Virus record (IMG/VR): IMGVR_UViG_3300026459_000022
Coordinates: 1-42,049 of that record
Reading direction: 5' to 3' (one strand)
DNA: 42,049 nt
Origin: a virus
The position numbers were made by a program, and so were the translations under genes. Below the pieces are notes generated by a model, which saw only the letters and a program-made list of their open reading frames with translations, had not been told where the DNA came from and ran no database searches. Below are positions 3,571 through 9,658 of the stretch, in pieces; position 1 is the first letter of the stretch; the number at the start of each line of letters is the position of its first letter.

Positions 3571-4038
3571 TCACTTTCCTATCAAGGTTTGGTACTGGGC
3601 GTAGCATTGTTTGAGGGCGACGCGGAGTTCGTCGGCTTCCCTAGCGATCCCGACAAGAAACTCTCCATCTTCTTTAAATAGCTCTCTTCCGGTACAACCA
3701 CCTGATCCAGCGCCGGAGGCACTGGACACGGCACTGGCATCGGCGGAGGGACGCGCTGCACGGTCCCGCAAGCTGTTAGAAAGAGCAGTGGCCCGAGCAT
3801 TAAGCTCCCTGATACGAGCGTCTTTTTCCGTGCGTAGTTTGTTGGCATTTGCTTGAAGCTCCTGTTCACGCTGCCGTGCCACCGCCTGCGCTTTGACGTG
3901 CTCGGCAAACTGGGCGGTCTTTTCTTTATCCCATTGCTGTTGCACCTCTGCCTGCCCTGCCTCGTTTCCTTTGTAATATCCGGAACCGAAAGCCAGAGCT
4001 ACGGCAATGGCTGCGCCAAGTAGGAAGTATGGATTCAT
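3571..4038 (-). CDS. Rz: Rz-like i-spanin
   Basis: This 155-residue protein has an N-terminal membrane anchor (about residues 4-20, FLLGAAIAVALAFGSGYY). A long, highly charged coiled-coil periplasmic part follows to about residue 95, then a less ordered C-terminal region. This is the layout of inner-membrane spanins, which join o-spanin across the periplasm and fuse the two membranes as the last step of lysis. Its ATG (4036-4038) overlaps the stop of the small secreted protein gene (ATGA). The Rz1-type gene lies entirely inside it in another frame, which strongly supports both calls. A paired spanin implies a Gram-negative host. Confidence 0.88.
   Translation of the reverse strand: MNPYFLLGAAIAVALAFGSGYYKGNEAGQAEVQQQWDKEKTAQFAEHVKAQAVARQREQELQANANKLRTEKDARIRELNARATALSNSLRDRAARPSADASAVSSASGAGSGGCTGRELFKEDGEFLVGIAREADELRVALKQCYAQYQTLIGK
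3582..3848 (-). CDS. Rz1: Rz1-like o-spanin lipoprotein, nested in Rz
   Basis: This gene is read in a different frame wholly inside the Rz gene. I chose the ATG complementary to 3846-3848 (88 residues) because GGAG lies 10 bases upstream and because it places a normal lipoprotein signal at the N-terminus: basic residues (ARKK), a hydrophobic segment and the lipobox LTAC (residues 24-27). Lipid attachment would be at C27. The mature protein begins with a Pro-rich segment (VPPPMPVPCPVPP), typical of outer-membrane spanins, and ends in a Ser/Asn/Pro-rich tail. It should sit in the outer membrane and bind the C-terminus of Rz. A longer form from an upstream Met is possible but would bury the signal sequence. 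Confidence 0.85.
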   Translation of the reverse strand: MPTNYARKKTLVSGSLMLGPLLFLTACGTVQRVPPPMPVPCPVPPALDQVVVPEESYLKKMESFLSGSLGKPTNSASPSNNATPSTKP

Positions 4039-4660: not shown

Positions 4661-4829
4661 CTTTCATGTCCTCTGGCTTAGTCAGTTGATCTGGGCATGT
4701 TCCTGTAGCTGAACAGTAAGGTCGTTTGCACTCCTTCTTTTCCCAATTATCTGGATCCTGACAAGGGTATCGGAAGTGATCACCACACCCTAACAGGCTA
4801 AATGCCAAGAATACGGCGAATACGCGCAT
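4593..4829 (-). CDS. Cys-rich small lipoprotein
   Basis: I chose the ATG complementary to 4827-4829 (78 residues). GGAG lies seven bases upstream, and this start gives a compact lipoprotein signal ending in the lipobox LLGC (residues 12-15), with C15 as the lipidated residue. The mature part has six or more cysteines in short spacing (PCQD, KECKRPYC, GTCPD, PCND, RCSN) and should be periplasmic, probably disulfide-bonded. It overlaps the endolysin gene by 32 bases and the holin candidate by 68 bases. It is not a normal Rz1: it lacks the Pro-rich run, and a nested Rz1 is already present. Its role in lysis is unknown. Confidence 0.72.
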   Translation of the reverse strand: MRVFAVFLAFSLLGCGDHFRYPCQDPDNWEKKECKRPYCSATGTCPDQLTKPEDMKDEPVKTDKPVPCNDAGTTRCSN

Positions 4830-5436
4830 GTTGTAGCTCCCTGTCGTCCATCCCTTTTGTCCCGCCATTGATCCTCTTGCTCAAGGTTACAAAGTCGCCT
4901 GAGTCTGCGTACTTATTTAAATTATTAGTTTCCCAAAACCAGCATGCGCTCTGTGCTGCGCCTTCAAAAGTCTGCATGTATTCTGACGCTTCTCGCACAG
5001 TTATCTCTAAGCTCATGGCGAAATTTTTATAATTTTCAGCCCCAGTAAGCTGGATAATTCCGCGCCCGGCGTGTAACCAGCCATCTCCTGACTCTTCATC
5101 ACGATTTCCCATGCGATTGGCATACACGCGGTTAGCGATCCTTTTAGGATTATTTGCGTATGCCTTTGCTGTTACCTCATCAGGAAAGTATTTTGCAAAG
5201 GTCTTCATCAACCCCTTGGCGCTGTAGTTCAGGTTTTCTGATAGATAGACAAAACCGCCTGACTCATGATGACACTGCGCCATGAACGCAGCTACACGGA
5301 CAGGCGTATTGATGTCGTAATCCTCCAGCAAACTTTTACCATCAAGCTCTGTCTGTTTGCCAAACAAAGCATCATGCCAGTTGTCTGGATACTTGGTATG
5401 CGGAGCAAACTCCTTAAATTGCTTCAACGTCAGCAT
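4798..5436 (-). CDS. GH19-type endolysin (chitinase-like lysozyme)
   Basis: The start is taken at the ATG in the TGATG overlap with the upstream stop (212 residues), with GAGGT upstream. A GTG three bases earlier is less likely. The protein shows the family 19 glycoside hydrolase core: AQCHHESGGF with the likely catalytic Glu at residue 58, the following SENLNYSAKGL segment, the NRMGNRDEESGDGW region holding the second acidic residue (about 114-115), and GRGIIQLTG (about 124-132). Family members of this size in phages cut the glycan strands of peptidoglycan. There is no signal peptide or SAR segment, so it needs a holin to reach the wall. Two membrane proteins that could serve are adjacent. 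Confidence 0.92.
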   Translation of the reverse strand: MLTLKQFKEFAPHTKYPDNWHDALFGKQTELDGKSLLEDYDINTPVRVAAFMAQCHHESGGFVYLSENLNYSAKGLMKTFAKYFPDEVTAKAYANNPKRIANRVYANRMGNRDEESGDGWLHAGRGIIQLTGAENYKNFAMSLEITVREASEYMQTFEGAAQSACWFWETNNLNKYADSGDFVTLSKRINGGTKGMDDRELQHARIRRILGI

Positions 5437-5729
5437 CACTCACCTCGCATCATTAAAAGCATTTGTGCGCGTAGCTCACGCATTTTCTTTATCTCCTGCA
5501 CTGCCGCACTTGTTGCATTGTTCGCGTCCATTAGAATTATCCCAATCAGAGGTATAGCAATAACAAAAGTTAGCGCCATGATTGCGATACAAATGACGAT
5601 AACTGCTGATACGTCTGACTCGTTCTTAGGAGCACCCCTACCCAAATCATCCACAGGAGGACGAACAGAATTGCCCCAATCCATGCCGCCAGTGCTTTTA
5701 CCTTGCGGATTGCTCTTCTTCGTCGCCAT
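5436..5729 (-). CDS. Small single-span membrane protein, holin candidate
   Basis: This is a 97-residue protein with a polar Gly/Pro-rich N-terminus and one long hydrophobic segment, residues 41-67 (SAVIVICIAIMALTFVIAIP and onward). A charged C-terminal helix (EIKKMRELRAQMLLMMRGE) follows. It ends in TGATG with the endolysin start, so the two are coupled. One span before an endolysin fits a small holin or a regulator of one. Its first 160 bases lie out of frame inside the 3' end of the preceding gene, an unusually long overlap. The Shine-Dalgarno for the chosen start is weak. A later Met at residue 16 is possible but has no ribosome site. Confidence 0.65.
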   Translation of the reverse strand: MATKKSNPQGKSTGGMDWGNSVRPPVDDLGRGAPKNESDVSAVIVICIAIMALTFVIAIPLIGIILMDANNATSAAVQEIKKMRELRAQMLLMMRGE

Positions 5730-6286
5730 TGCAGTATTTGCGCCTTGCGCATCTCCTCAGCGATAGCTTGGTTTTGTTCGATTACAATCTGGGTCCACAT
5801 CTGCTCAAAACGAGTCCATAAGTCTCCCAACTCACTGGGAGCGTGGTACACCATTTGTTCTCTGACTTCTGCAAGCATAGAATCCAGTTGATATTTTAGC
5901 TTCAGCCTTTCCAAGGCCCTGCGTCCAAGGGATTTGTCTCCCTTATAGACAGACTTCGCAGAGACTTCTGACTCTGTGTACGCCTTGACCATAACATCGT
6001 ACTGGTCAACAAACACACCAAGATTGTCCCAAATATCATTTAGCACCTCATCAGGTTTTGCTTCTGCAATCTTCTGAACACGACGCACCTCTTCATTATA
6101 TTGGTGCTTTTGTTCAGGGCTTGGGTCAACAATCTTGTGATACTGCTCCTTTAAATCTTTTAGTACTCCAGATACATCACCAGCAGTAGCCTTGATTTCC
6201 TTGTACATCGCCACGCCGCGCTTAGCCATATCTATCGCGACGGTTGCGGCCTTAAAGGCCGCTGCAATGGTTACTGGGTCAAGAAT
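5570..6286 (-). CDS. C-terminal-anchored membrane protein, apparent ATT start
   Basis: The first ATG (6227-6229) has no ribosome site. Nineteen codons upstream, in frame, is an ATT (6284-6286) with a clean AGGAG nine bases before it (6296-6300); an in-frame TAG at 6293-6295 blocks anything further. From ATT the protein begins M-L-D-P-V-T-I-A-A-A, a form I recall from related phage proteins, and has 238 residues. It continues with an Ala/Lys-rich helical part and long charged helices. A basic WRRRRAIRK stretch precedes a membrane span at about 198-220 (AWIGAILFVLLWMIWVGVLL). It is first in the lysis region, and its SD overlaps the stop of the large upstream gene. The function is unknown; a membrane or internal virion role is possible. 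Confidence 0.65.
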   Translation of the reverse strand: MLDPVTIAAAFKAATVAIDMAKRGVAMYKEIKATAGDVSGVLKDLKEQYHKIVDPSPEQKHQYNEEVRRVQKIAEAKPDEVLNDIWDNLGVFVDQYDVMVKAYTESEVSAKSVYKGDKSLGRRALERLKLKYQLDSMLAEVREQMVYHAPSELGDLWTRFEQMWTQIVIEQNQAIAEEMRKAQILQWRRRRAIRKVKALAAWIGAILFVLLWMIWVGVLLRTSQTYQQLSSFVSQSWR

Positions 6287-6298
6287 TTCACACTACTC

Positions 6299-9200
6299 CT
6301 ATCGCTGCTGCATGTTCAACAACTGCTGTCTACGCTGCTCAATCATTGCTCCTAACGGATCGTTAGGGAACAACTGCGGATACAACATTGGCATTGATGC
6401 CATTGATGGTGTTGGTCGCGGTGGTGGCGTAGTCGGAATACGGAACGTAGTTCCCGTAGTCGGCGGCGCAGGAGGCAAGGCTCTTAGCATCTCCCTTGCT
6501 GTAGCGCGCGGCACCACAGGCAACTCTGCTCTGCCCGGCACAGGAATTTGCTCCTCGCCCCTTACTGCGCGTTCTGTCTCTATCAGTTCTGCACGAGCCG
6601 CGCCCGGAACAATTTTGCTTGCCGGGATACCAATGTTTTGTAGCTGCCCTGCAACCTTCTTGGCCTCCTGCGGAGTGCCTACGCGAACAATCTGTGAGGC
6701 AAACTGTGGGTCTTCCAAAGCTTTGGTAAAAATCCGCTTGTATAGCTCGTTCTCCAAGCCAGCGCTAAGACGTACCAACAGAGCAAGGGCTCCGGTGCTC
6801 GGTGCAATCCTGCCGACTGCTGCTTCGCGCATCGTGGTGGTTAGGAACTGAATACCAGAACCAAACACACGCTTTAGCGAGTTGTCCAGCGATTCAAATA
6901 CAGGGATTTGACCTGTAACGTCGGCAAAAGCATTGACGCGCGCTTGCAGATCAGCCAAGACTTTCAGGTCGTCCAAATGCTTGGTATCTTTAAACAACAC
7001 TTGCAACGACTTCTGATTCTGCTCGAGGAAGGACTTCAAGGCCCCGCCTTTGACAGAACCCTCTGTAGCTACATCAAACACCGCACGGCGCAGCGAAGCA
7101 AGGCGCTCTGGGTCTTTGCCAAACTCATCTACCAGAACACGCATGGTTGCAGGGTCCTGAATAGCCTTGGATAGCACTTGGCGCGGATCAGCATCTGGCC
7201 TAGCGGCTTTTTGCAATAGCGTATCGAGCTCTGCATTCTTTGCCTGCAGACGGCGCTGATCCAGTTCGCCAAGGCGGCGCACATAATCATCCGCAACAGT
7301 TACTTCGTTCTGCAGTTTTGCACGGATGCCTTCCGGCAACGCTTCTACTATGTTGCGGTTTTTATCCAGCACGGAGCGGATTTTCTTTGGATCCACCACG
7401 CCTTCTGCTGTCAGAACGCCTTTGTTACGCAGCCAATCTATCGCACCACGCTCTAACAAGGCATCGAACTGCGGAATGCCCCCCAGTGTTATCTGTAACT
7501 GGCGCAGATTCTCAGCATTCTGAAATGCCTTTTGCATGATCTGCTCGTTGCCCAGCAGAAACTCTTCGCCACGCATCTTCCTGCCGGAGATCATCAGTGG
7601 CAAGGATTTCTCAAAACCTTCCTTGTAATCTGACAACACCCCACGCATTGCATCGTACTCACGAGCAATCTTTGGCACGTGGTCCAAGATCAGTTTTTCA
7701 ACGTCATTGAACACAGCAGTTCCGGTGTCCAATATCCTCTGCGCGTCAGTCAAGCGCGTCGCGCCACGGCCCATGGCAGAGTTGTAACGTGCGATGCTGT
7801 CTGTACGGTAGCGAGAAGCCGCAGCAAGGTAATCCAGCGCTTCTGGCAGATTGATATTGACCGACGTATTTTCCCGTGCAATCAATTCCGCATCGGCTTT
7901 GATCTGCTCTGGATTGATAACGATGGACTTGTTAGGAATGCCAGTAGGTATGATCTTCTCGCCTTCTGGCCCCGTCTTTGCAATATCTGCTGCAGTAACG
8001 CCACGCCTGCCTTTTGTCTTCTTACCATATAGCAAAGCAAATGCCTGACTGCGCACTGCCTCTTCAAGATCAGTAGGTAAGCCCATGCCAGCGATCTGCT
8101 TATCAATGCTTTCATTGGTAAGCTGCTTGATCATCCTGTTTTCCAGCGCATTACGCGTCTGCTGTTGTATTTCAACAAAGGACTTTAAGCGCTGTATTGG
8201 CTCTGGGACAGAAATACGTGTGGAAGGGCGGTCAGGCGTATATTTGGCGATTAGTTTCATCGCCGCTTCTTCCATATCCTGTGCAGGGAACAAGGATTTA
8301 CCTTCTTCCCGGGTAGGCATAGGCAGGCCCTCGGGCGACGTAGCTTGACGCAAGCCCATCCTGTTCAGGGTGTTCTTGCGCATGCTATAGTCAAACTCCA
8401 TGGCAGACAGCAACGCACCACGCAGTTCGTTGTTGATCATATCCATGTTCTGCGGTCCGAGGCGCTCGGACAGCGCTGCGACTTCCGCTTCCGTCATATC
8501 CTTTTGAGCGCGCACCAGCGACTCAAAGAATTGTTGACGGTCTGCCTGTGCTGCTTGGAATGCCTCAACCACCGCTTGCCGCGACTCGGGTGCGATGGAG
8601 TCAAACAGGGATTTGAGCTTCTGTTGATTCTCGTTGATCCGTGCCTTTGTGGCTTCTAATTCCTTTGGCCCCAACTGATTTAAAAGCTCAGCCTTGCGCT
8701 GCAGGAGAGGGCCGTACATGGTGCGCTCAGCAGCATCAAACAAAAAGCCTGCCTCTGCAAAGCGTGGATCAGCCAATGCCTGCTCAAGCTGACGCAAAGC
8801 CTGTTGTGCTTCGGGGCTCTCGGATATTGGGCCGAAGACCTGTGCAAGCTTTTTCTCGGCATTCTTCATCAGAAGCTGCGGGGCAATCTTTACGCCCGGA
8901 AGTTGCCAGAACCGCGCTCCGGGAACGCCCTCTAGCGCGCCCTTTTCTATCTCTCCAAGACCAGCGGTCGCAGAGGTAATCTTGTTCTTCACCGCCCTGC
9001 CTGCCATTACAGAAGGCACATAATTTAATGCCATGGGCAGGCCAACTAGCGCAGCGGTGGGCAGCAATGTCTCGTACAACTGCTTGTTCGGGTTTTCATC
9101 GCTGACTTCTTCTTTAACAGCCTGACGCAACCCTTCATATGCCGAACCAAAGGTTACGTCCAGTGCAGCCGCCAGCCGCGGGTTCTTCTGCACAAAAGAA

Positions 9201-9658
9201 ATGGCATCCTTTGCGATGCCTTTTAATACGCCCTCGCCAGCACGTGTGGTGGCAGTAACCATCGGCCTTGTTCTTGCGGCCCAAGCCAGCACCCCGGTAA
9301 ATGGCATCGTGCCGCCAATGCCTTCGCCAACAGCGCGCGCGTAGCGCTCTTCAGCATTTCTGGTAGGCATCTCGCCCTTGTTAAACAGCCTGCCCAAGGT
9401 AAAGACATCATCTTCCTTCATGCCCAATCCACGCCCGATAGCCTTGGTTGCGGCATCCGGCAGAGCAAAGAGCATGGAGTTGAATCCCCATGACAAGTTG
9501 TTCAACAAGCCACTAACTCTATCTCCGCCCGTTGTAGCCACATCCGCTTTTGTAGGTTCACGGGGCGCAACGACAGTGGGCGTACCCTCGGTACGCCCAA
9601 CAATCTCTCCTGTTGCAAGATCAACTACCTCACCACGAGTATTGGTTATGGTTGTCAT
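6299..9658 (-). CDS. Large phage protein, probable virion/ejection protein (1119 residues)
   Basis: The ATG (9656-9658) overlaps the previous stop as ATGA. The protein is long and mostly helical in appearance. The N-terminus is polar (about residues 1-45). Hydrophobic Gly/Ala-rich segments lie around residues 90-150 (VGEGIGGTMPFTGVLAWAA) and 170-230. Long charged Gln/Glu/Arg stretches of coiled-coil type extend to about 950, and a Pro-rich tail ends the protein (LPPAPPTTG onward). I do not recognise an enzyme motif. Its size, helical make-up and place between structural genes and lysis genes match inner capsid or DNA-ejection proteins of short-tailed phages, such as T7 gp15/gp16 by analogy of position. 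That assignment is inference. Confidence 0.6.
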   Translation of the reverse strand: MTTITNTRGEVVDLATGEIVGRTEGTPTVVAPREPTKADVATTGGDRVSGLLNNLSWGFNSMLFALPDAATKAIGRGLGMKEDDVFTLGRLFNKGEMPTRNAEERYARAVGEGIGGTMPFTGVLAWAARTRPMVTATTRAGEGVLKGIAKDAISFVQKNPRLAAALDVTFGSAYEGLRQAVKEEVSDENPNKQLYETLLPTAALVGLPMALNYVPSVMAGRAVKNKITSATAGLGEIEKGALEGVPGARFWQLPGVKIAPQLLMKNAEKKLAQVFGPISESPEAQQALRQLEQALADPRFAEAGFLFDAAERTMYGPLLQRKAELLNQLGPKELEATKARINENQQKLKSLFDSIAPESRQAVVEAFQAAQADRQQFFESLVRAQKDMTEAEVAALSERLGPQNMDMINNELRGALLSAMEFDYSMRKNTLNRMGLRQATSPEGLPMPTREEGKSLFPAQDMEEAAMKLIAKYTPDRPSTRISVPEPIQRLKSFVEIQQQTRNALENRMIKQLTNESIDKQIAGMGLPTDLEEAVRSQAFALLYGKKTKGRRGVTAADIAKTGPEGEKIIPTGIPNKSIVINPEQIKADAELIARENTSVNINLPEALDYLAAASRYRTDSIARYNSAMGRGATRLTDAQRILDTGTAVFNDVEKLILDHVPKIAREYDAMRGVLSDYKEGFEKSLPLMISGRKMRGEEFLLGNEQIMQKAFQNAENLRQLQITLGGIPQFDALLERGAIDWLRNKGVLTAEGVVDPKKIRSVLDKNRNIVEALPEGIRAKLQNEVTVADDYVRRLGELDQRRLQAKNAELDTLLQKAARPDADPRQVLSKAIQDPATMRVLVDEFGKDPERLASLRRAVFDVATEGSVKGGALKSFLEQNQKSLQVLFKDTKHLDDLKVLADLQARVNAFADVTGQIPVFESLDNSLKRVFGSGIQFLTTTMREAAVGRIAPSTGALALLVRLSAGLENELYKRIFTKALEDPQFASQIVRVGTPQEAKKVAGQLQNIGIPASKIVPGAARAELIETERAVRGEEQIPVPGRAELPVVPRATAREMLRALPPAPPTTGTTFRIPTTPPPRPTPSMASMPMLYPQLFPNDPLGAMIEQRRQQLLNMQQR

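Follow-up and report, generated by a model that had tools for sequence, protein, structure and literature searches.

Lysis-region context and start site of the 238-residue gene

The analysed stretch of viral DNA (42,049 nt, hereafter the window) carried on its minus strand a lysis module with genes for an endolysin and spanins (Table 1). A gene for a 238-residue protein was located in this module, behind a gene for a 1119-residue protein that had no PHROG match. The initial annotation described the 238-residue product as a lysis-region protein. This description is based on the gene order, as the genes for the endolysin and the Rz-like spanin adjoin, but the protein itself matched no known lysis family (holin, antiholin or spanin). 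It had no significant match in Pfam, PHROG or NCBIfam and no PDB fold match at E ≤ 0.001. Its matches in BFVD were uncharacterised viral or phage proteins only, one of them a 166-residue fragment with 46% identity. The AlphaFold2 model was all helix (mean pLDDT 78), and one hydrophobic C-terminal transmembrane segment was predicted at about residues 193–222.

For the 97-residue protein encoded by the next gene, no known family was found. At 111 of 111 loci this gene began inside the 238-residue gene; the relative frame never varied, and the median overlap was 121 nt. The two genes, both for membrane proteins, appear to form a nested arrangement that is conserved. Within the gene for the Rz-like spanin, another frame (window positions 3582–3908) encoded a probable lipoprotein with a lipobox-like LTAC motif, an arrangement that resembles an embedded Rz/Rz1 pair.

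Around the start of the 238-residue gene, the minus strand reads CGA TAG GAG TAG TGT GAA ATT CTT GAC CCA GTA ACC ATT GCA. Everything that the initial annotation stated about the sequence was confirmed here. The ATT is present, with AGGAG at the distance described, and the first in-frame ATG lacks a ribosome site (duplex energies in Table 1). A TAG precedes the ATT by three codons, and no in-frame ATG, GTG or TTG occurs on the minus strand between this stop (6295–6293) and position 6229. A second in-frame TAG at 6301–6299 is the stop codon of the 1119-residue gene. Translation from the ATT (first residue I or M) added 19 residues and gave a product of 238 residues. Gene calling limited to ATG, GTG and TTG omits these 19 codons, and standard callers would miss the extension, as had been anticipated. 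A phage-encoded special tRNA was looked for in the window, and none was found.

Table 1. Features of the start region and the lysis module in the window.
Feature	Positions	Strand	Remarks
Rz-like inner-membrane spanin	3571–4038	−	PHROG phrog_312, E 1.6e-16
Endolysin	4798–5439	−	PHROG phrog_181, E 6.6e-69
97-residue single-transmembrane protein, next gene	5436–5729	−	Starts inside the 238-residue gene
238-residue gene, from ATT	5570–6286	−	Stop codon 5572–5570; from translation; conserved in 144 dereplicated clusters
First in-frame ATG (codon 20), not the start	6227–6229	−	Anti-Shine-Dalgarno duplex energy +0.3 kcal/mol; Leu at this position in L002–L006
N-terminal stretch of 19 codons, M-L-D-P-V-T-I-A-A-A-F-K-A-A-T-V-A-I-D	6230–6286	−	Near-invariant D, P and T in relatives; codons fully variable among synonyms
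ATT start codon	6284–6286	−	Homologous start is ATT in 73 of 144 sampled clusters
In-frame TAG, three codons before ATT	6293–6295	−	From the sequence
AGGAG Shine-Dalgarno sequence	6296–6300	−	Nine bases from ATT; anti-Shine-Dalgarno duplex energy −6.8 kcal/mol
Upstream 1119-residue gene	6299–9658	−	TAG stop (6301–6299) overlaps the Shine-Dalgarno sequence, 12 nt before ATT

Start codons in related viral loci

Viral contigs held hundreds of homologues of the 238-residue protein, and a tblastn search against annotated phages gave distant homologues only. The contigs were metagenomic and came from environmental phages. A host search by a scan of 84,980 genomes yielded a sole match, partial and with 34% identity, in a Chitinophagia MAG (L089, RGVM01000128.1), which is possibly a binned phage contig. 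The census of start codons was capped at the best 80 per scan and biased toward the best-scoring loci. The start column was located via the conserved D-P-x-[T/S] motif, and the open frame was traced back to the preceding stop. The 226 loci were dereplicated (95% over 306 nt) into 145 clusters, of which 144 were counted after one ambiguous cluster (L198) was left out.

The start column held ATT, ATC, GTG, TTG or ATG in 144 of the 145 clusters, far beyond chance. Among the 144 sampled clusters (best 80 per scan), the codon was ATT in 73, GTG in 64, ATG in three, and ATC and TTG in two each. The check proposed at the outset, which start codon the relatives use, was thus answered with ATT for about half of those sampled. 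The ATT start is a trait of the family and not an oddity of a single phage. Sequencing error was rejected as its source, the pattern recurring in 73 distinct clusters, and so was an alternative genetic code, given that upstream genes, frames and stop codons all differ among loci.

Five further variant sequences with an altered N-terminus (L022–L025, L085) use ATG. Four of them (L022, L023, L025, L085) form a subgroup with the N-terminus MPFALIAAAN and an ATG start, preceded in three of the four by a GAGG-type Shine-Dalgarno sequence. This subgroup is an exception to the avoidance of AUG in the family.

The commonest form of the start region was GGAGGAATAA ATT GAC CCG CTA ACC, with a stop codon immediately before the ATT; an earlier start is therefore impossible in it. 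The window has an extra codon between the start and Asp (ATT CTT GAC), and an extra codon at this place also occurred in ATG TTC GAC (L006), GTG CTA GAC (L008) and GTG CTT GAC (L176). In two distant homologues, L008 (MW202462.1, 3947–3974) and L009 (MW202484.1, 3938–3959), the GenBank annotations begin at a downstream ATG. In both, the conserved D-P motif opens with an in-frame GTG, and both annotations therefore look N-terminally truncated.

Amino-acid conservation began at the codon after the start. Asp-Pro-x-Thr was conserved at approximately 100% with free synonymous variation (Asp2 and Pro3 at 100%), and there was no amino-acid conservation upstream of the region of the Shine-Dalgarno sequence and stop codon. 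In the ATT class, Asp2, Pro3 and Thr5 were invariant while their codons varied synonymously. The L-D-P-V-T that had been singled out in the added stretch was recovered among the relatives as an essentially invariant D-P-[LIV]-T. A canonical in-frame start upstream was absent in 72 of the 75 ATT/ATC loci.

Codon choice at the start column also differed from that inside the genes. Of the 75 starts in the ATT/ATC class, 73 were ATT and none was ATA. Internal Ile codons of the same genes split in thirds (358 ATT, 385 ATC, 342 ATA), and such an excess of ATT is therefore far from chance (P = 9e-33 given this Ile usage), as is GTG in 64 of 64 loci of the GTG class, where internal Val codons were evenly used (P = 4e-40); both P values are indicative only, because the loci were treated as independent.

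Initiation at the ATG at 6229, with the stretch upstream of it untranslated, is in our view highly improbable. This ATG is the first canonical start of the gene in the window and the choice of a standard caller, and another ATT locus (L001) also has a Met near codon 20. However, the ATG has no ribosome site, the closest relatives with GTG and ATG starts have Leu at the position of codon 20, and strong constraint acts on the amino acids of codons 2–19, where the codons change synonymously. In most ATT loci the first ATG comes no earlier than codon 89, which is usually the next one in frame. Conservation that begins at or after Met20, the result that would have spoken against the ATT, is excluded by the Leu in these relatives and by the position of the next ATG.

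Readthrough or frameshifting from the upstream gene, as a source of the N-terminal region in place of initiation at the ATT, deserves just as little credence. The upstream gene does end in the same frame just before the ATT in the window and in many other loci. Across the family, however, the ends of the upstream sequences occupy all three frames, lie at different distances and use each of the three stop codons, and the sequences fell into 68 unrelated groups among 140 loci. Conservation breaks off sharply at the ATT, and homologues with a canonical GTG or ATG carry it in the very column occupied by ATT elsewhere. Because the upstream sequences are unrelated and their frames and stops differ, readthrough and frameshifting are excluded as a general explanation.

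Start codon, Shine-Dalgarno strength and recombination

The mean anti-Shine-Dalgarno duplex energy was −7.1 kcal/mol at ATT/ATC loci (n = 74) versus −1.9 kcal/mol at GTG loci (n = 64; P = 3e-17). Neighbouring genes with ATG starts had a mean of −5.5 kcal/mol (n = 229). One locus was taken from each of 40 ATT groups whose upstream DNA is unrelated between groups; what these loci shared was mainly GGAG at −10 to −7, followed by an A-rich spacer and the ATT. Most GTG loci had little or no site and lay right behind the upstream stop, usually with a gap of 1 or 3 nt. Exceptions were a few ATT loci without a Shine-Dalgarno sequence (L203, L216) and a few GTG loci with one (L003, L228). The leader structure did not separate the classes, as the predicted folding energy of the start region was similar in both.

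A tree of the protein that excluded the start codon required 38 changes of the start label, with at least 24 switches between ATT and other codons on supported branches. In independent pairs, Shine-Dalgarno strength shifted with the start codon about 13 times and in the opposite direction 0.6 times (sign test, median p 0.001, range 6e-5 to 0.04). One switch was found between loci with 86% identical upstream DNA (L184/L175), a pair in which AGGG with ATT stands against AAGA with GTG.

Neighbouring families on the same contigs, scanned for unusual starts as same-strand ORFs, mostly started at ATG (104/112, 45/46, 53/60, 26/29 and 48/65). The effect therefore belongs to the 238-residue gene. A phage-wide habit of ATT starts was rejected on this basis, together with the finding that none of the other listed genes of the window has a comparably strong upstream non-canonical start candidate.

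In 42 of the 64 GTG loci, the start codon overlaps an out-of-frame ATG as ATGTG (e.g. L002, L005, L043, L158). AT precedes the GTG in 20 of 27 GTG loci with unrelated upstream DNA. Loss of one TG from ATGTG would give an in-frame ATG start. The out-of-frame ATG may act as a decoy start that lowers initiation at the GUG.

The start of the 238-residue gene is a sharp recombination junction, as seen from the many unrelated upstream groups. Among near-identical pairs, upstream DNA was unrelated in 59 of 63 that differ in start class and in 76 of 127 that share it. Where the start codon switches, the upstream gene has in most cases changed as well, through recombination at the boundary. Such recombination could bring in a Shine-Dalgarno sequence and a start codon together and so account for part of the trade-off. 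A further step would be to regard the whole block of Shine-Dalgarno sequence, ATT and GAYCC as chiefly a linker for recombination at the border of the lysis module, in which the odd start codon is a tolerated passenger. The position of the gene start at a module junction and the unrelated upstream DNA in both kinds of pairs speak for a linker, but we consider it unlikely. ATT is retained behind many unrelated upstream genes, and the L184/L175 switch took place with largely identical upstream DNA. From codon 2 onward the sequence varies synonymously, unlike a fixed linker. Moreover, ATT becomes ATG by one substitution, yet AUG is almost absent; mutation therefore cannot explain the persistence of AUU.

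Probable weak initiation and known AUU starts

At the level of sequence, the comparison demonstrates the start position, the family-wide use of AUU, the balancing of the start codon against the strength of its ribosome site, and repeated switching. That about half of the 144 sampled relatives start at AUU and nearly all others at GUG suggests that these viruses have been selected for a weak start. The idea in the initial annotation that the rare start is a level control is supported indirectly, by the trade-off and the avoidance of AUG. We consider it likely, from the sequence comparisons, that translation truly initiates at AUU 6286–6284 and that weak initiation of the 238-residue gene is kept across the family.

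The initiator fMet-tRNA would start the gene at this AUU, directed by the AGGAG 9 nt upstream and close behind termination of the 1119-residue gene. Strong initiation would be selected against, and the family would hold the gene at a low rate by one of two solutions. About half of the members would combine a strong Shine-Dalgarno sequence with AUU (rarely AUC), and most others GUG with little or no Shine-Dalgarno sequence right behind the upstream stop. Natural AUU and AUA starts with an extended Shine-Dalgarno sequence gave approximately 10% of the AUG reporter output in poor medium (PMC13009471). The selected quantity may be a low output of the membrane-anchored lysis-region protein. Lysis timing might depend on the dose of this protein relative to the 97-residue protein, or on how many ribosomes pass over the start of the next gene. 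It is plausible that the two membrane proteins are kept at a fixed ratio of doses or that ribosome passage across that start is limited.

The combination of AUU and Shine-Dalgarno sequence might instead serve sensing and not quantity. Initiation would then be repressed by IF3, and output would rise only when the ratio of IF3 to ribosomes falls or the state of the cell changes, which would time the lysis module. Non-canonical starts, AUU among them, are repressed by IF3 (PMC5472188), and the growth medium affected one natural AUA start (PMC13009471). Overproduced IF3 lowers re-initiation, an effect that is milder with a Shine-Dalgarno sequence present (PMC2268962). On the other hand, the AUU start of cvfC1 showed no effect of the medium (PMC13009471), and GUG, expected to be much less sensitive to IF3, starts the gene in about half of the family, with free exchange between GUG and AUU. 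Given how readily GUG takes the place of AUU, we regard sensing as rather improbable. With similarly low confidence, AUU may be viewed as a lysis-timing input in a widespread environmental phage group. IF3 discrimination would throttle the first lysis gene, its dose against that of the overlapping single-transmembrane gene would set the onset of lysis, and a site-less GUG behind the upstream stop would be interchangeable with AUU.

With AUU as its most frequent start, at least 24 switches with GUG, a site strength that matches the codon and avoidance of AUG, the phage family amounts to a natural experiment on how the start codon and the Shine-Dalgarno sequence jointly set protein dose. AUU starts are usually regarded as isolated curiosities, and gene callers restricted to ATG, GTG and TTG cannot see them. 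By implication, annotations of the 238-residue family are N-terminally truncated. Conserved non-canonical starts in viruses could be found systematically from the point at which protein conservation begins.

Natural AUU starts that combine a strong Shine-Dalgarno sequence with limited output are known from cellular genes, namely infC, pcnB and staphylococcal cvfC1. The infC gene of Escherichia coli, which encodes IF3, starts with AUU, and that of Streptomyces with AUC. As in infC, the AUU (or AUC) of the phage gene is conserved across relatives, and weak, IF3-sensitive initiation is expected. In contrast, infC is cellular and autoregulated by its own product, whereas the phage gene encodes an unrelated membrane protein (no IF3 family was among its Pfam or NCBIfam matches) and alternates freely between AUU and GUG. 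For E. coli pcnB, Binns and Masters (2002, cited in PMC13009471) are said to have found that the AUU start limits protein output. Limited output of a protein through an AUU start would be common to both, but pcnB is a single cellular gene, and family-wide alternation belongs to the phage gene.

In the Staphylococcus genes cvfC1 (AUU) and ccpN (AUA), selection likewise maintains a non-canonical start alongside a strong, extended Shine-Dalgarno sequence, and it is to these starts that the reporter output of about 10% of AUG in poor medium refers (PMC13009471). They differ in being cellular genes of Firmicutes with one conserved state, without repeated switching and without a phage or lysis context. 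In its genome announcement, Salmonella phage f18SE is said to have ten genes starting with AUU (PMC4599075). A search of the open-access literature turned up no account of a phage gene family that starts most often with AUU. Across prokaryotes, weaker start codons pair with stronger Shine-Dalgarno sequences (Belinky, Rogozin and Koonin 2017, PMC5622118). In that survey, starts almost never switched to AUU (1 of 61,358 ancestral AUG starts and 1 of 5,080 ancestral GUG starts), whereas the phage family combines its repeated switching with avoidance of AUG.
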